Source of the DNA: Lacinutrix sp. Hel_I_90
GTDB taxonomy: Bacteria > Bacteroidota > Bacteroidia > Flavobacteriales > Flavobacteriaceae
Assembly: GCF_000934685.1 (NCBI RefSeq)
Contig: NZ_JYNQ01000001.1
Span: forward strand, 2,902,501-2,966,500
Direction of reading: 5' to 3'
DNA length: 64,000 bases
Part shown: positions 1-64,000 of the stretch, piece by piece
Position numbering within the stretch: position 1 is the first letter of the stretch
Layout: each line of letters begins with the position of its first letter
The notes under the pieces: generated by a model
What the model was told of the DNA's origin: nothing
The model's database searches: none
The model's input: only the letters and a program-made list of their open reading frames with translations
Position numbers and translations under genes: made by a program

Positions 1-298
1 CTGACTGTTCATGTATCGCACTAAAAACACCGCATGAGTTACCGTCAAACATGTATTCGCCTTTGGTATATCCAATTTTGTTTATCGTATCTCTAGCAAT
101 CTTTTGTACATCTAAATAAGTATTAGACTTTACTTCACCTGCAAGTACGACTTGGCCGGTAGTTACTAAAGTTTCACAAGCAACTTTCGAGTCCTTGTCG
201 AATGCTAAAAAGTTATCGATTAAGGCATCACTAATTTGATCTGCTACTTTGTCTGGATGACCTTCAGACACACTTTCTGATGTAAATAAATACGCCAT
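1..298 (-). CDS. metK: S-adenosylmethionine synthetase (N-terminal part; gene runs off the window)
   Basis: This is the 5' end of the enzyme that makes S-adenosylmethionine from methionine and ATP in the cytoplasm. The translated start reads [20 protein letters not shown], the MetK N-terminus; its GHPDK motif carries the ATP/metal-binding His. About 99 residues are present and the rest lies left of base 1. The ATG at 298 is the only start that gives this canonical beginning. No stop or frameshift is seen. Upstream lie a SAM-II-type riboswitch and a TAnnTTTG -7 box, so the gene probably responds to its own product. It fits functionally with the methionine genes at 37-48 kb. Confidence 0.97.
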
Positions 299-349: not shown

Positions 350-450
350 ACACTGCCTTTAGCATTTAATTTCAAACTTGATTTGGAATCTATTGCATCC
401 GTAATTTATCAGTTTGAAGAGGTTGCAATCAGTCAAATCCGTCCTCTTTA
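350..450 (-). promoter_or_regulatory. SAM-II-type (long-loop) riboswitch upstream of metK
   Basis: The minus-strand leader of metK has the layout of a SAM-II pseudoknot. The P1 stem is AAGAGG (448-443) pairing with CCTCTT (422-417). The P1 loop reads GATTTGACTGATTGCAA, very close to the GATTTaACcgtATTGCAA core of the metA SAM-II aptamer that I recall. The 3' strand AAATGCTAAAGGCAGT ends in CAGT (355-352), which is complementary to ACTG (433-430) in the loop and gives the pseudoknot. The spacer between P1 and the 3' strand is about 50 nt, as in the SAM-II-long-loops variant described in Bacteroidetes. The match is by eye; a covariance-model search would settle it. Confidence 0.8.
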
Positions 451-462
451 ATTTTCGAAATA

Positions 463-37070: not shown

Positions 37071-37100
37071 CACTCACAAAGTTCAATTATTTATTGAAAT

Positions 37101-37262
37101 GTTATCAAGAAAGGCCGAGGGATTAGACCCATTGAAGCCTTAGCAACCCTTTAAATTTATTAAAGAAGGTGCTAAATTCTACTTAAAGACGCGATTCATT
37201 TATCGCCGAATTGGATAGATAACCAAAACGTAATCACTCCTCTGTGGTTATTATTTTCTTTT
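37101..37262 (+). promoter_or_regulatory. SAM-I (S-box) riboswitch with terminator platform
   Basis: The aptamer runs from GTTATC (37101-37106) to GATAAC (37218-37223), which pair as P1. Inside are the S-box blocks AGGCCGAGGGATTAGACCC, TTGAAGCCTTAGCAACCC and AAGGTGCTAAATTC. The platform is also readable. GTAATCAC (37230-37237) pairs with GTGGTTAT (37244-37251), followed by TATTTTCTTTTT, forming a terminator. ATAACCA (37219-37225), part of the 3' P1 strand, can instead pair with TGGTTAT (37245-37251) as antiterminator. SAM binding stabilises P1, frees the terminator and stops transcription of metY and probably the genes behind it. Confidence 0.93.
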
Positions 37263-37361: not shown

Positions 37362-38654
37362 ATGAGTACACAAAAATTCGCAACTAAAGCGTTGCACGCA
37401 GGACACGACACAACTAAAAATGGAGGCACCAGAGCAGTGCCAATTTATCAATCTACAGCTTATGTTTTTGATGATTCCGATGATGCAGCAGGACGTTTTA
37501 ACCTCTCGATTCCAGGCTTTATTTACACCAGATTAAACAATCCTACAAACGCTGTTTTAGAACAGCGTATTGCCACTTTAGAAGGGGGTATTGCAGCAGT
37601 GGCAACGGCCTCTGGTACGGCAGCAATTTCAACAACATTGCTCACGCTTTTAAAAGCGGGTGATCATATTGTAGCGTCTAGTAGTTTGTATGGCGGGACG
37701 TACAATTTATTAAGTGTCACCCTGCCTAGACATGGAATTACAACCACGTTTGTAGATCCATCAGATCCAGAAAATTTTAGTAAAGCAGCCCAAGAAAATA
37801 CACGCGCTATTTTTGTGGAGTCTTTAGGGAATCCTAAATTAGATGTATTAGATATTGAAGCCATTGCTAAACAAGCTAAAGCGCACAAAGTGCCTTTTAT
37901 TGTTGATAATACAGTGGCGACGCCCTACTTATTAAACCCTATTGCGTATGGTGCAGACATTGTTATTCATTCTTTAACAAAATACATTAACGGAAACGGG
38001 ACCTCGCTTGGCGGTATTATCGTTGATGCTGGAACTTTTGATTGGACTAATGGTAAATTCCCGGAATTCACAGAGCCATCTGCAGGGTATCATGGTTTGG
38101 TATACAGTGAAGCTATTGGCCCAGCGGCATTTATTGCAAAAATAAGAATTGAAGGGCTGCGTGATTATGGTGGTGCATTGAGCCCCTTTAATGCGTTTCA
38201 AATCATTCAAGGTTTAGAAACTTTAGAACTGCGTATCTTAAAACATAGTAGTAATGCATTAGCGCTGGCTAAATGGTTACAAGAACAGCCAGAAGTCACC
38301 TGGGTAAATTATCCAGGTTTAGAAGACAGTAAATACAAGAAATTGGCAGATCGATATTTGCCAAATGGTCAAAGTGGTATTGTTACTTTTGGAGTAGCGG
38401 GTGGCTACGAATCGGCTAAAACCATTGCAGACACCACAAAATTGTTTTCATTATTAGCGAATATAGGCGATACCAAATCATTAATCATTCATCCAGCAAG
38501 TACAACACATCAACAATTAAGCGATGAAGCACAGGAGAGTACTGGTGTTACTAAAGATTTAATTCGTTTGTCTGTAGGTATTGAAAATATCGAAGATTTA
38601 AAAGCAGATTTAAAAGAAGCCTTTGAAGTCGTTAAAAAGACCGTTTTAGCTTAA
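37362..38654 (+). CDS. metY: O-acetylhomoserine sulfhydrylase
   Basis: This 430-residue PLP enzyme of the Cys/Met metabolism family joins O-acetylhomoserine and sulfide to homocysteine. It begins KFATKALHAGHDTTKNGGTRAVPIYQSTAYVF as MetY proteins do. HSLTKYINGNGTSLGG carries the PLP lysine. The length, with the extra loop around 215-245, is the long MetY form, not the 380-390 residue MetB/MetZ form. It is the first gene after the SAM-I riboswitch, so it is expected to be off when SAM is abundant. Confidence 0.93.
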   Translation: MSTQKFATKALHAGHDTTKNGGTRAVPIYQSTAYVFDDSDDAAGRFNLSIPGFIYTRLNNPTNAVLEQRIATLEGGIAAVATASGTAAISTTLLTLLKAGDHIVASSSLYGGTYNLLSVTLPRHGITTTFVDPSDPENFSKAAQENTRAIFVESLGNPKLDVLDIEAIAKQAKAHKVPFIVDNTVATPYLLNPIAYGADIVIHSLTKYINGNGTSLGGIIVDAGTFDWTNGKFPEFTEPSAGYHGLVYSEAIGPAAFIAKIRIEGLRDYGGALSPFNAFQIIQGLETLELRILKHSSNALALAKWLQEQPEVTWVNYPGLEDSKYKKLADRYLPNGQSGIVTFGVAGGYESAKTIADTTKLFSLLANIGDTKSLIIHPASTTHQQLSDEAQESTGVTKDLIRLSVGIENIEDLKADLKEAFEVVKKTVLA

Positions 38655-61547: not shown

Positions 61548-61628
61548 ATCATTCTGCAATTTAAATAAAGGTTTGTAGACAAATCTTTAAATCTTCGAGT
61601 AAAACACTAAAAATTAGTCTTTAGTATT

Positions 61629-61657
61629 TTGTTATATCGAATTATTATTTACTTTAG
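61629..61657 (+). promoter_or_regulatory. probable promoter of the aromatic operon
   Basis: TTG (61629-61631), 18 bases, TACTTTAG (61650-61657), one mismatch to TAnnTTTG. The start would be near 61664, just before the leader ATG at 61672. Confidence 0.5.
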
Positions 61658-61671
61658 CAGTGTATTACATT

Positions 61672-61749
61672 ATGAAAATAGCAAACAACACATATTATAG
61701 CTGGTTTTATTTCTTTTTTAACAAAGAGAACGAGACGCTATATATGTAA
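61672..61749 (+). CDS. aromatic amino-acid leader peptide (25 codons)
   Basis: ATG 61672 to TAA 61747-61749 encodes 25 residues. Residues 8-16 read YYSWFYFFF: eight of nine are Tyr, Trp or Phe, with a further Tyr at position 24. It lies upstream of pheA, an aminotransferase and tyrA on the same strand. A strong terminator follows at 61774-61804 and an alternative pairing overlaps it. This is the signature of ribosome-mediated attenuation like the enterobacterial pheL/trpL systems, but with all three aromatic residues in one peptide. It is far too short for homology search. Confidence 0.88.
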   Translation: MKIANNTYYSWFYFFFNKENETLYM

Positions 61750-61781
61750 TTGTAAAAACATATATTTAAAACCAAGTCTCG
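61731..61781 (+). promoter_or_regulatory. antiterminator hairpin of the aromatic leader
   Basis: CGAGAC (61731-61736), inside the leader codons, pairs with GTCTCG (61776-61781). Nested inside, ATATATG (61740-61746) pairs with CATATAT (61759-61765). This structure uses the left arm of the terminator, so the two exclude each other. Confidence 0.75.
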
Positions 61782-61804
61782 ATAATTATATCGGGACTTT
61801 TTTT
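61774..61804 (+). terminator. attenuator of the aromatic operon
   Basis: AAGTCTCGATA (61774-61784), loop ATTA, TATCGGGACTT (61789-61799): 11 pairs with one G-U, running into seven T residues (61798-61804). It stands between the leader peptide and pheA. Confidence 0.9.
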
Positions 61805-61882
61805 ATTTCCAGAATTTAAACTTTTTAAAATTAAATTTTGCTAACTAATCCAATCGAAAGTTGGGTAAATAACAATAAAATT

Positions 61883-62710
61883 GTGATAAAATCAGTAGCT
61901 ATACAAGGCGTAAAAGGGTCGTTTCACCATATTGTGTCGCAAGACTATTTTGGAGAAAACATGCAGGTGAACGAATGTTTATCCTTTGACGATACTGTAG
62001 ACGCGCTTTTAAGTAGGAAAACAGAAGCCGCTATTATGGCCTTAGAGAACTCTATTGCAGGTTCAATTATCCCAAATTATGCGTTGATTGATAATAATAG
62101 CCTACACATTGTAGGGGAGTATTATTTAGACATTCAGCATCATTTAATGGCATTGCCAAATCAGGCTATTGAAGCGATAAAAGAAGTGCATTCACACCCT
62201 ATGGCTTTATTACAGTGTAAGACGTTTTTAAAAAACTATCCACACATTAAGTTAGTTGAAGCTAAAGATACCGCTGAAGTTGCTAAACGTATAAGTAAGC
62301 AAAAGATAAAAGGTATTGCTGCAATAGCTAGTAAATTGGCTTCTCAATTATTTGATTTAACCATTCTCGCGGAAAGCATTCAAACCATAAAGCATAATGA
62401 AACACGATTCGCAATCGTAAAAAGAAGTAATTCTGAAATTCCAAAAGAAGAAATTAACAAGGCGTCTGTAAAGTTTGAACTCGATCACAAGCGTGGAAGC
62501 CTGGCGACTATTTTGAATGTGATGAGTGACTGTAAGTTGAATTTAACCAAAATTCAATCACTTCCAAAAATAGAAACCCCATGGTTGTACGCTTTTTTTG
62601 TAGATGTTACTTTTGAGAACTATTCAGATTTTGAAAAAGCAAAATCCATTATGAAAATTATGGCTACACATTTTAAAATATTGGGGGAATATAAAAACGC
62701 AAAACACTAA
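61883..62710 (+). CDS. pheA: prephenate dehydratase
   Basis: This 275-residue enzyme converts prephenate to phenylpyruvate. The N-terminal VAIQGVKGSFHHIV and ALENSIAGSI motifs belong to the catalytic PDT domain; NETRFAIV is the conserved Thr-Arg-Phe site. An ACT regulatory domain spans about 195-275 (FELDHKRGSLATILNVMSD). No chorismate mutase domain is fused. GTG 61883 (VIKSVAIQG) is the best start; a frame to TTG 61838 adds 15 unlike residues. The stop shares a base with the next ATG (62710). Confidence 0.9.
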   Translation: MIKSVAIQGVKGSFHHIVSQDYFGENMQVNECLSFDDTVDALLSRKTEAAIMALENSIAGSIIPNYALIDNNSLHIVGEYYLDIQHHLMALPNQAIEAIKEVHSHPMALLQCKTFLKNYPHIKLVEAKDTAEVAKRISKQKIKGIAAIASKLASQLFDLTILAESIQTIKHNETRFAIVKRSNSEIPKEEINKASVKFELDHKRGSLATILNVMSDCKLNLTKIQSLPKIETPWLYAFFVDVTFENYSDFEKAKSIMKIMATHFKILGEYKNAKH

Positions 62711-63849
62711 TGGAGGTTTCAAAAAGATTACATAGCGTTGAAGAATACTACTTTTCTAAAAAGTTAAAGGAAGTGAATGTCCTAAAAGCCAGTGGTAAGC
62801 CAATTATTAATTTAGGTATTGGTAGTCCAGATTTACAACCGCCTGATAAAGTAGTAAAAGCCATTACGGATAGTTTTAAAGATGAGAATGCACATAAATA
62901 CCAAAGTTACCAAGGTTTACCAGAGTTACGTGAAGCGATTTCAGGTTTTTATCGTACACATTTTAATGTTTTCGTAAATAAGGATACCGAAGTGCTGCCA
63001 TTAATGGGAAGTAAAGAAGGTATCATGCATATTGCTATGGCCTTTTTAGATGAGGGCGATGAAGTTTTGATTCCTAATCCAGGATATCCAACCTATACTT
63101 CAGTAACAAAATTATTACATGCTAAACCTGTATTTTATAATTTGGAAGAAAATAACAACTGGTGTCCAGATATAGCGGCCTTAGAAAAATCAGATTTAAG
63201 TAAAGTAAAGCTAATGTGGTTAAGCTATCCGCATATGCCAACAGGAGCAAAGGCAACTAAGGAGACATTTAAAGCGCTTATTGCTTTTGCAAAACGACAC
63301 CATATTTTATTAGTTAATGACAATCCGTACAGTTTTATTTTAAATGAAGAGCCATTGAGTATTTTAAGCATTGACGGCGCTAAAGACGTGTGTTTAGAGC
63401 TTAATTCATTAAGTAAAACCTTTAATATGGCAGGGTGGCGTGTAGGTATGGTTTTAGGAAAAGCGGCGTTTATAAATGCTATTCTTAAAGTAAAAAGTAA
63501 TATGGATTCTGGAATGTTTTATGGTATACAAAAAGGAGCTATTGAAGCTTTAAACTGCTCGAAATTCTGGTTTGCTAGTCTAAATAGTGTGTATGAGGAA
63601 CGTCGCAAACTGGTTTGGGAATTAGCAACACGACTTAATTGTACTTTCGATAAAAACGCTGTAGGTTTATTCGTTTGGGCAAAGTTGCCACCATCTTTTG
63701 AATCGGAAGCCTTTATAGATAAATTACTACAAGAAAAGCACATTTTTATTACACCAGGAACCGTTTTTGGCTCACAAGGCGAAGGGTATGTGCGGTTTTC
63801 TCTATGCGCAGGAAACGAAGTTATTGAAGAAGCAATCTCGAGAGTATGA
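62710..63849 (+). CDS. class I/II aminotransferase, probable aromatic aminotransferase
   Basis: This 379-residue PLP enzyme has Lys236 in SLSKTFNMAGWRVG and the fold-type I motifs INLGIGSPDL and PNPGYPTY. It lies between pheA and tyrA, so transamination of phenylpyruvate and hydroxyphenylpyruvate is the expected task. Similarity to LL-diaminopimelate and aspartate aminotransferases means the name is by context. It overlaps pheA by 1 base and tyrA by ATGA. Confidence 0.85.
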   Translation: MEVSKRLHSVEEYYFSKKLKEVNVLKASGKPIINLGIGSPDLQPPDKVVKAITDSFKDENAHKYQSYQGLPELREAISGFYRTHFNVFVNKDTEVLPLMGSKEGIMHIAMAFLDEGDEVLIPNPGYPTYTSVTKLLHAKPVFYNLEENNNWCPDIAALEKSDLSKVKLMWLSYPHMPTGAKATKETFKALIAFAKRHHILLVNDNPYSFILNEEPLSILSIDGAKDVCLELNSLSKTFNMAGWRVGMVLGKAAFINAILKVKSNMDSGMFYGIQKGAIEALNCSKFWFASLNSVYEERRKLVWELATRLNCTFDKNAVGLFVWAKLPPSFESEAFIDKLLQEKHIFITPGTVFGSQGEGYVRFSLCAGNEVIEEAISRV

Positions 63850-64000
63850 TAAATAATATATACATAATAGGCGTTGGATTAATAGGCGGGAGCTTGGCTT
63901 TAGACATTAAAGCAAAAAGACCAGATGCGACTATTTTTGGGATAGATAATTCAGAAGAAAATCTAACGATGGCTTTAGAATTAGGTGTAATAGATATAAA
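63846..64000 (+). CDS. tyrA: prephenate dehydrogenase (5' part; runs off the window)
   Basis: The last 155 bases open a frame starting MINNIYIIGVGLIGGSLALD, the NAD-binding fold of TyrA. It overlaps the aminotransferase stop by ATGA. Only about 51 residues are visible. Prephenate dehydrogenase supplies the tyrosine branch beside PheA, which fits the three-way aromatic leader peptide upstream. The operon probably continues to the right. Confidence 0.88.
   Translation, partial: MINNIYIIGVGLIGGSLALDIKAKRPDATIFGIDNSEENLTMALELGVIDI

Follow-up and report, generated by a model that had tools for sequence, protein, structure and literature searches.

The window analysed here is the whole 64-kb stretch of DNA, and close to its end lies an aromatic amino acid operon preceded by a short leader region (Table 1). 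pheA is followed by a class I/II aminotransferase, by tyrA and, beyond the window end, by a gene for a fused DAHP synthase/chorismate mutase. With these four genes behind the leader, the operon combines the entry step of the pathway with the Phe/Tyr branch. This gene order is kept in 116 of 130 loci of the family, and DAHP synthase lies downstream in 123 of the 124 loci that carry a leader. pheA probably starts at GTG 61883 rather than at the first TTG of its ORF at 61838, because most alignments with homologues begin only at residues 13-19 of the longer ORF. The pheA locus with the nearest named PheA is that of Lacinutrix neustonica (90%; the comparison may omit the window's own genome).

Table 1. 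Features of the pheA leader region and operon; positions refer to the window unless a locus is named
Feature	Position	Strand	Details
Candidate promoter, Bacteroidetes type	61627-61657	+	TTTTG (61627-61631) and TACTTTAG (61650-61657)
Leader peptide ORF, MKIANNTYYSWFYFFFNKENETLYM	61672-61749	+	25 codons, stop TAA at 61747; similar leaders in the family
Regulatory codons TAT TAT AGC TGG TTT TAT TTC TTT TTT	61693-61719	+	from sequence and modelled antitermination
Antiterminator 5' arm (segment 2), CGAGAC	61731-61736	+	inside the leader ORF; pairs with 61776-61781 (GTCTCG)
Inner A/T stem	61740-61747 with 61758-61765	+	from folding; tightens the antiterminator in this genome
Intrinsic terminator	61774-61804	+	arms 61774-61784 and 61789-61799, T run 61798-61804; helix covaries
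pheA, prephenate dehydratase	61883-62710	+	PF00800, 7e-55; probable GTG start
Class I/II aminotransferase	62710-63849	+	PF00155, 1.7e-61
tyrA, prephenate dehydrogenase	63846-64000, continues past window end	+	PF02153 and NF006307, whole gene
DAHP synthase/chorismate mutase fusion	L131 3229-4329, next after tyrA, beyond the window		PF00793 and PF01817
Tandem pheA leaders, family f50	L188, L330-L335, L340-L342, L345, L349, L350, L352-L354, L356

Elements of the leader region

The leader is a short ORF with clustered codons for the end-product amino acids of its own operon, as expected of an attenuator. The earlier note on this DNA had described 25 codons with YYSWFYFFF at residues 8-16, eight of the nine being aromatic, together with an 11-pair terminator with seven T and two pairings that compete with it, and we find each of these elements at the coordinates it gave. 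Four of the 11 terminator pairs are G-C, and the first two residues of the T run lie within the stem. The 5' arm of the terminator is shared, its alternative partner being segment 2 within the ORF. Folded in isolation, antiterminator and terminator reach -11.9 and -12.7 kcal/mol, respectively. The inner pairing of ATATATG (61740-61746) with CATATAT (61759-61765) is visible by eye in two further Lacinutrix loci (L213, L214). Across the family, there is no support for an inner hairpin kept in the antiterminator loop, as 1169 of 3630 shuffled spacers fold equally well or better.

A protector (1:2) hairpin between the codon run and segment 2 is present in the minimum-energy fold of the window. Among ribosome-free folds of relatives, the protector helix exceeds 0.5 in only 25 of 121, so termination in the absence of leader translation would be weak in many of them. 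For many relatives, the folding model thus predicts that read-through rather than termination should be expected when the leader is not translated.

A candidate promoter precedes the leader. The accessible text of PMC9723704 gives the consensus TAnnTTTG, and the box in the window carries TTAG instead of TTTG. Within 60 nt of the leader ATG, the pattern TAnnTT[TA]G, which was widened post hoc after inspection of the sequences, occurs in 116 of 124 relatives and in 236 of 2480 base-shuffled stretches. The strict TAnnTTTG is found near the leader ATG in only 25 of 124 relatives (shuffled: 132 of 2480).

No NCBIfam family was matched by the leader peptide. A covariance-model search of the host genome returned the pheA attenuator as one clear copy with 121 bits, the next score being 35.5 (150 of 6718 candidates scored), and none of the further candidates was convincing as a second copy. 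Apart from the pheA leader, the same 64-kb window holds both a SAM riboswitch (37099-37225, plus strand) and a SAM-II riboswitch (396-452, minus strand). By eye, the gene after the SAM riboswitch (37362-38654) resembles an O-acetylhomoserine sulfhydrylase gene, and the gene after the SAM-II riboswitch (2-298, minus strand) resembles metK.

Conservation and covariation of the two helices

The suggestion that pheA upstream regions of relatives should contain aromatic runs and covarying stems is borne out by the family survey. A search of 149 genomes found PheA in 130, and all 130 loci were taken. In 124 of these loci, an ORF that starts with ATG and has five or more aromatics within nine residues lies no more than 450 nt upstream of pheA. 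With at least six aromatics in nine, the same search finds 123 of 130 loci compared to 33 of 1300 dinucleotide shuffles; the aromatic leader before pheA is not a product of chance. All 124 leader loci have, between the leader and the first structural gene, a terminator-like hairpin with a folding energy of -6 kcal/mol or lower, compared to 33 of 372 shuffled stretches. Sequence conservation is concentrated in the leader run, in segment 2 and in the terminator.

Of the six loci missed by the five-in-nine rule, three (L018, L084, L117) have the leader further upstream than 450 nt, and in two (L012, L128) contig ends leave just 134 and 379 nt to search. L099 is the only family locus that lacks a leader although no contig end truncates it; there is no aromatic leader within 1150 nt of pheA, and its pheA is found without aminotransferase, tyrA or DAHP synthase on the same strand in the 7 kb examined. 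In a named collection, which overlaps the family survey, 78 of 80 loci have the leader; the two exceptions are cut by a contig end (L219) or have the leader at -545 from pheA (L254, Gelidibacter).

In L018, with the leader at -652, a repeat array of near-identical units adjoins pheA, as judged by eye. In L117, an intact leader and terminator lie somewhat less than 1 kb away from pheA, and in the intervening DNA an ORF resembling a REP-type transposase and flanking repeats can be seen by eye. In L254 the leader is likewise displaced.

A survey of the class gave a PheA match in 52 of 198 genomes, two of which were left out. By the five-in-nine rule, an aromatic leader precedes pheA in 30 of the 44 loci examined outside the family, and the other 14 have no such leader within 450 nt. 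Another family of the class, f50, has two aromatic leaders in series before pheA in 17 of 30 loci, 12 loci with one leader and one locus with none (30 of 62 matching genomes examined). Every tandem module has a terminator of its own behind it. The antiterminator of the first module lies out of the usual register in L342 and L353, two of the 17 loci. Two aromatic leaders are likewise seen in L201 and L208, which belong to other families.

The duplex between segment 2 and the terminator 5' arm has a mean energy of -10.8 kcal/mol compared to -5.3 kcal/mol for shuffled segments, and in 111 of 124 loci no more than 5 of 100 shuffles match the locus's own antiterminator duplex. Terminator arms taken from other loci still pair fairly well, because the arms are similar across loci: their mean is -8.1 kcal/mol, and a median of 10% of them outperform the own arm. 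The following anchored counts cover 118 of the 124 loci, the other six having no listed core motif. Antiterminator pair 4 is T-A in 68, C-G in 48 and T-G in two of these loci, raw counts that ignore kinship. When segment 2 is chosen anew for each arm, 5.33 of 6 pairs are of Watson-Crick type with the own arm and 4.18 with a different foreign arm; in 113 of the 118 loci the own arm scores above the mean of the foreign arms, kinship again being uncorrected. This comparison supersedes an earlier control with dealt arms (5.32 vs 4.51 ± 0.06), which favours the own arm because segment 2 had been picked against it. Relatedness enters only one of the covariation counts, the parsimony count on the PheA tree, which gives at least 11 changes for pair 4.

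In the terminator helix, both sides change at 6 of 9 pairs (29 sequences), and none of 500 shuffles reaches a value as high. All 132 antiterminator cells of 22 near relatives are paired, with variation by wobble only, and in this close set (alignment A3) both helices vary by wobble only. The covariation therefore comes from the wider set. Alignment A4 was set aside for the antiterminator and replaced by the anchored counts, because MAFFT shifted segment 2 by one column in part of the rows. We conclude that both alternative helices covary.

Codon spacing and the proposed switch

The distance from the last aromatic codon to the first antiterminator pair is 10.4 ± 1.4 nt in 121 loci. In the same loci the antiterminator distance spreads by ± 5.9 nt when taken from the stop codon and by ± 3.4 nt when taken from the ATG. 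The stop codon ends at the earliest 5 nt before segment 2 and at the latest 28 nt past the start of that segment. For three of the 124 loci (L042, L080, L095) the script found no good antiterminator, only weak duplexes, and they were left out of this sample. Applied to E. coli controls, the script returns 8 nt for pheL and 14 nt for trpL; for hisL it gives a gap of 44 without resolution.

Toeprints place the leading edge of the ribosome 12 nt past the first base of the A-site codon, and this value was taken as model input. With this edge, a ribosome halted at the final aromatic codon would reach just up to segment 2. Modelled antitermination across the loci is 0.95 when the A site holds the last aromatic codon, 0.73 one codon later, 0.10 two codons later and 0.00 at the stop codon. 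For the window (L001), it is 0.98-0.99 with any aromatic codon of the run in the A site, 0.83 one codon later and 0.00 from two codons later. The stall model, an equilibrium fold of the exposed RNA, is more a restatement of the spacing than an independent test of it.

From the parts, their conservation, covariation and spacing and the gene order, we infer the following course from promoter to starvation response. Transcription would start just upstream of the leader, and a ribosome would translate the 25-codon ORF behind RNA polymerase. When charged Phe-, Tyr- or, in this genome, Trp-tRNA is short, the ribosome would stall within 61693-61719, and its leading edge would halt just before 61731. 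The free 61731-61736 could then pair with 61776-61781 as the latter emerges, the terminator would be blocked, and polymerase would read into the operon. With aromatic tRNAs charged, the ribosome would move on towards the stop at 61747 and cover 61731-61736; as segment 2 lies within the coding region, the translating ribosome itself would block it. The terminator helix at 61774-61799 would form and transcription would end near 61804. Sequence, covariation and geometry point to an antiterminator that excludes the terminator and that would be freed by a stalled ribosome.

Two explanations would do without this switch. The terminator could be constitutive and the peptide important for another reason, as a nascent chain that arrests by its aromatic run or as a functional micropeptide. 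Long aromatic runs are indeed conserved as peptide sequence, but Phe and Tyr are interchanged within the run, the final residues (NETL.., GTGLL, RTL) shift along with the RNA pairing, and it is the spacing from codons to hairpin that is held while the position of the stop varies. We regard such a role of the peptide as very unlikely. Still less probable, to a degree that we hardly consider it, is control by a metabolite riboswitch or a T-box with an incidental ORF. The 5' region of the window is structured (z -2.99 vs shuffles), as such an element would be, but the Rfam scan of the region gave no family at cut-off, with Phe_leader RF01859 at 15.4 bits (cut-off 55) and Trp_leader RF00513 at 16.3 bits (cut-off 41), and the focus of conservation described above is on the parts of an attenuator.

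Attenuation, the reading proposed in the earlier note, thus has strong support from conservation and covariation, from the spacing between codons and hairpin and from the gene content of the operon. The element in the window is very probably a ribosome-mediated transcription attenuator with mixed aromatic codons that controls pheA, the aminotransferase, tyrA and DAHP synthase/chorismate mutase. The same layout in many relatives suggests that a stalled ribosome switches these genes on when aromatic amino acids are scarce.

Amino acids that the switch may sense and relation to known systems

The earlier note had proposed one switch for the supply of Phe, Tyr and Trp. For Phe and Tyr this holds throughout: 85 of the 124 leader runs contain Phe, Tyr and Trp, 39 contain Phe and Tyr, and none is without Phe or Tyr. 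For Trp the proposal holds less well, and the switch might sense mainly Phe (and Tyr), with the Trp codon as a drifting bystander and Trp supply left to the trpE leader. The absence of Trp from 39 leaders agrees with this, as do its varying offsets in the run and the at least 22 changes in its presence on the PheA tree. Trp is also not enriched, since its share of the 1109 aromatic run codons (57% Phe, 35% Tyr and 8% Trp, with 86 Trp codons) is about that in the 43 ORFs of at least 200 aa in the window (53% Phe, 39% Tyr, 7.7% Trp). In 104 of the 124 leaders the run ends with a Phe codon, and in 19 with a Tyr codon. Furthermore, the host trpE has its own leader, MNTNLNHTWWWNSRKNNS, with a terminator upstream of the gene (L210 3009-2953, minus strand), and leaders with at least two Trp in five residues precede trpE in 49 of 50 family loci (30 of 30, then 19 of 20). 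This sample covers 50 of 54 matching genomes (L293-L321, L362-L381 and the host), and the choice of a 9-codon ORF as the leader of L375 is open to doubt. Against a bystander role stand the retention of the Trp codon in 85 leaders, with exactly one in 84 of them, and its placement, as a stall at any of the 85 modelled Trp codons would open the operon. The DAHP synthase of the operon feeds Trp synthesis as well. We consider sensing of mainly Phe (and Tyr) a serious possibility, at somewhat less than even odds. A Trp input is plausible in this genome, and it is not a fixed part of the system. The idea that the Trp codon is there because the operon has DAHP synthase has no discriminating power, since 123 of 124 leader loci have DAHP synthase with or without a Trp codon.

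The trp leaders appear to be built differently. A search of 30 flavobacterial trp leaders gave no classical left-arm antiterminator, the pairings averaging -4.6 kcal/mol at scattered positions. Instead, the terminator loop together with the first part of the 3' arm (TCACGA) has a complementary segment (TCGTGA) 17-22 nt past the last Trp codon. A loop complement of at least 6 nt is present in 29 of the 30 loci compared to 22 of 1500 shuffles. Among 19 more divergent loci, it reaches at least 6 nt in 8 and at least 5 nt in 12, and is 4 nt or absent in 7. Matching changes in L317, L380 and L381 support the pairing. By its complementarity, the segment is possibly a loop-sequestering antiterminator that would block hairpin nucleation at the loop. 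Taken together, we tentatively propose a two-tier circuit in Bacteroidia, to which we give slightly less than an even chance. In it, a pan-aromatic leader, with a codon mix that reflects how much Phe, Tyr and Trp the cell needs, would open the operon of the entry enzyme and the Phe/Tyr branch upon shortage of any of the three. A second leader, with Trp codons, would control the trp branch by an unusual antiterminator that holds the terminator loop and not the 5' arm. Some lineages would double the pan-aromatic module in series.

The earlier note knew of no description of such a system for Flavobacteriaceae, which is wrong in outline. For Flavobacterium psychrophilum, the accessible text of PMC9723704 (2021) reports clues that amino-acid operons are preceded by leader-peptide attenuators, along with a structured pheA 5' element without Rfam match that is present in other Flavobacteriaceae genera, so the core of the finding is already in print in outline. 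Earlier predictions may be contained in Lopatovskaya 2010. The accessible parts of PMC7366714, PMC4833913, PMC1183508, PMC8305728, PMC5613140 and PMC1262725 do not describe the pheA leader of the window. In the searched literature, with supplements and most subscription papers beyond its reach, we met with no account of a mixed aromatic code in leaders throughout the class Bacteroidia, of the spacing rule and class-wide spread, of tandem pheA leaders in one family or of complementarity between part of the trp leader and the loop of its terminator. Leader-peptide attenuation is textbook knowledge in Proteobacteria and little described for Bacteroidota in searchable papers. Flavobacterial mRNAs lack Shine-Dalgarno sequences according to the accessible text of PMC9723704, so how leader translation starts and couples to polymerase becomes a question there. 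More than 100 natural variants with a nearly fixed codon-to-hairpin distance offer a test set for this question, and equally for the possibility that a single leader responds to three amino acids. The element also offers a route to annotating missed small ORFs and the operon.

Among the closest known systems is the F. psychrophilum element, which shares gene and family with that of the window, as well as the structured 5' region, the missing Rfam match and the proposal of attenuation for amino-acid operons. The accessible text of PMC9723704 comes without peptide sequence, codon identity or antiterminator. Four other Flavobacterium genomes of the named set have the leader, in the form MxxNRFYFSNxFYFFFSRS and without Trp. 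The E. coli pheL-pheA system likewise has a leader peptide, a terminator and a competing antiterminator before pheA, with 8 nt from the last Phe codon to segment 2 by the same script. In pheL, however, Phe is the sole aromatic residue and segment 2 begins 2 nt past the stop codon, whereas the leader of the window mixes Phe, Tyr and Trp and contains segment 2 within its ORF. E. coli carries tyrA and aroF on the opposite strand, while the operon of the window also includes tyrA and DAHP synthase. The codons of the ilvGMEDA leader stand for several amino acids. One leader peptide there reads several products of one operon, as proposed for the window, though they are the branched-chain amino acids of enterobacteria and not the aromatic ones. 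Attenuation of ilvGMEDA is named in the accessible text of PMC1183508. For the tandem leaders of f50, the nearest parallel is the Salmonella mgtCBR leader region, which has two short ORFs in tandem attenuators according to the accessible text of PMC3641672. The genes are different, and the two modules of f50 are both leaders with aromatic codons and separate terminators.
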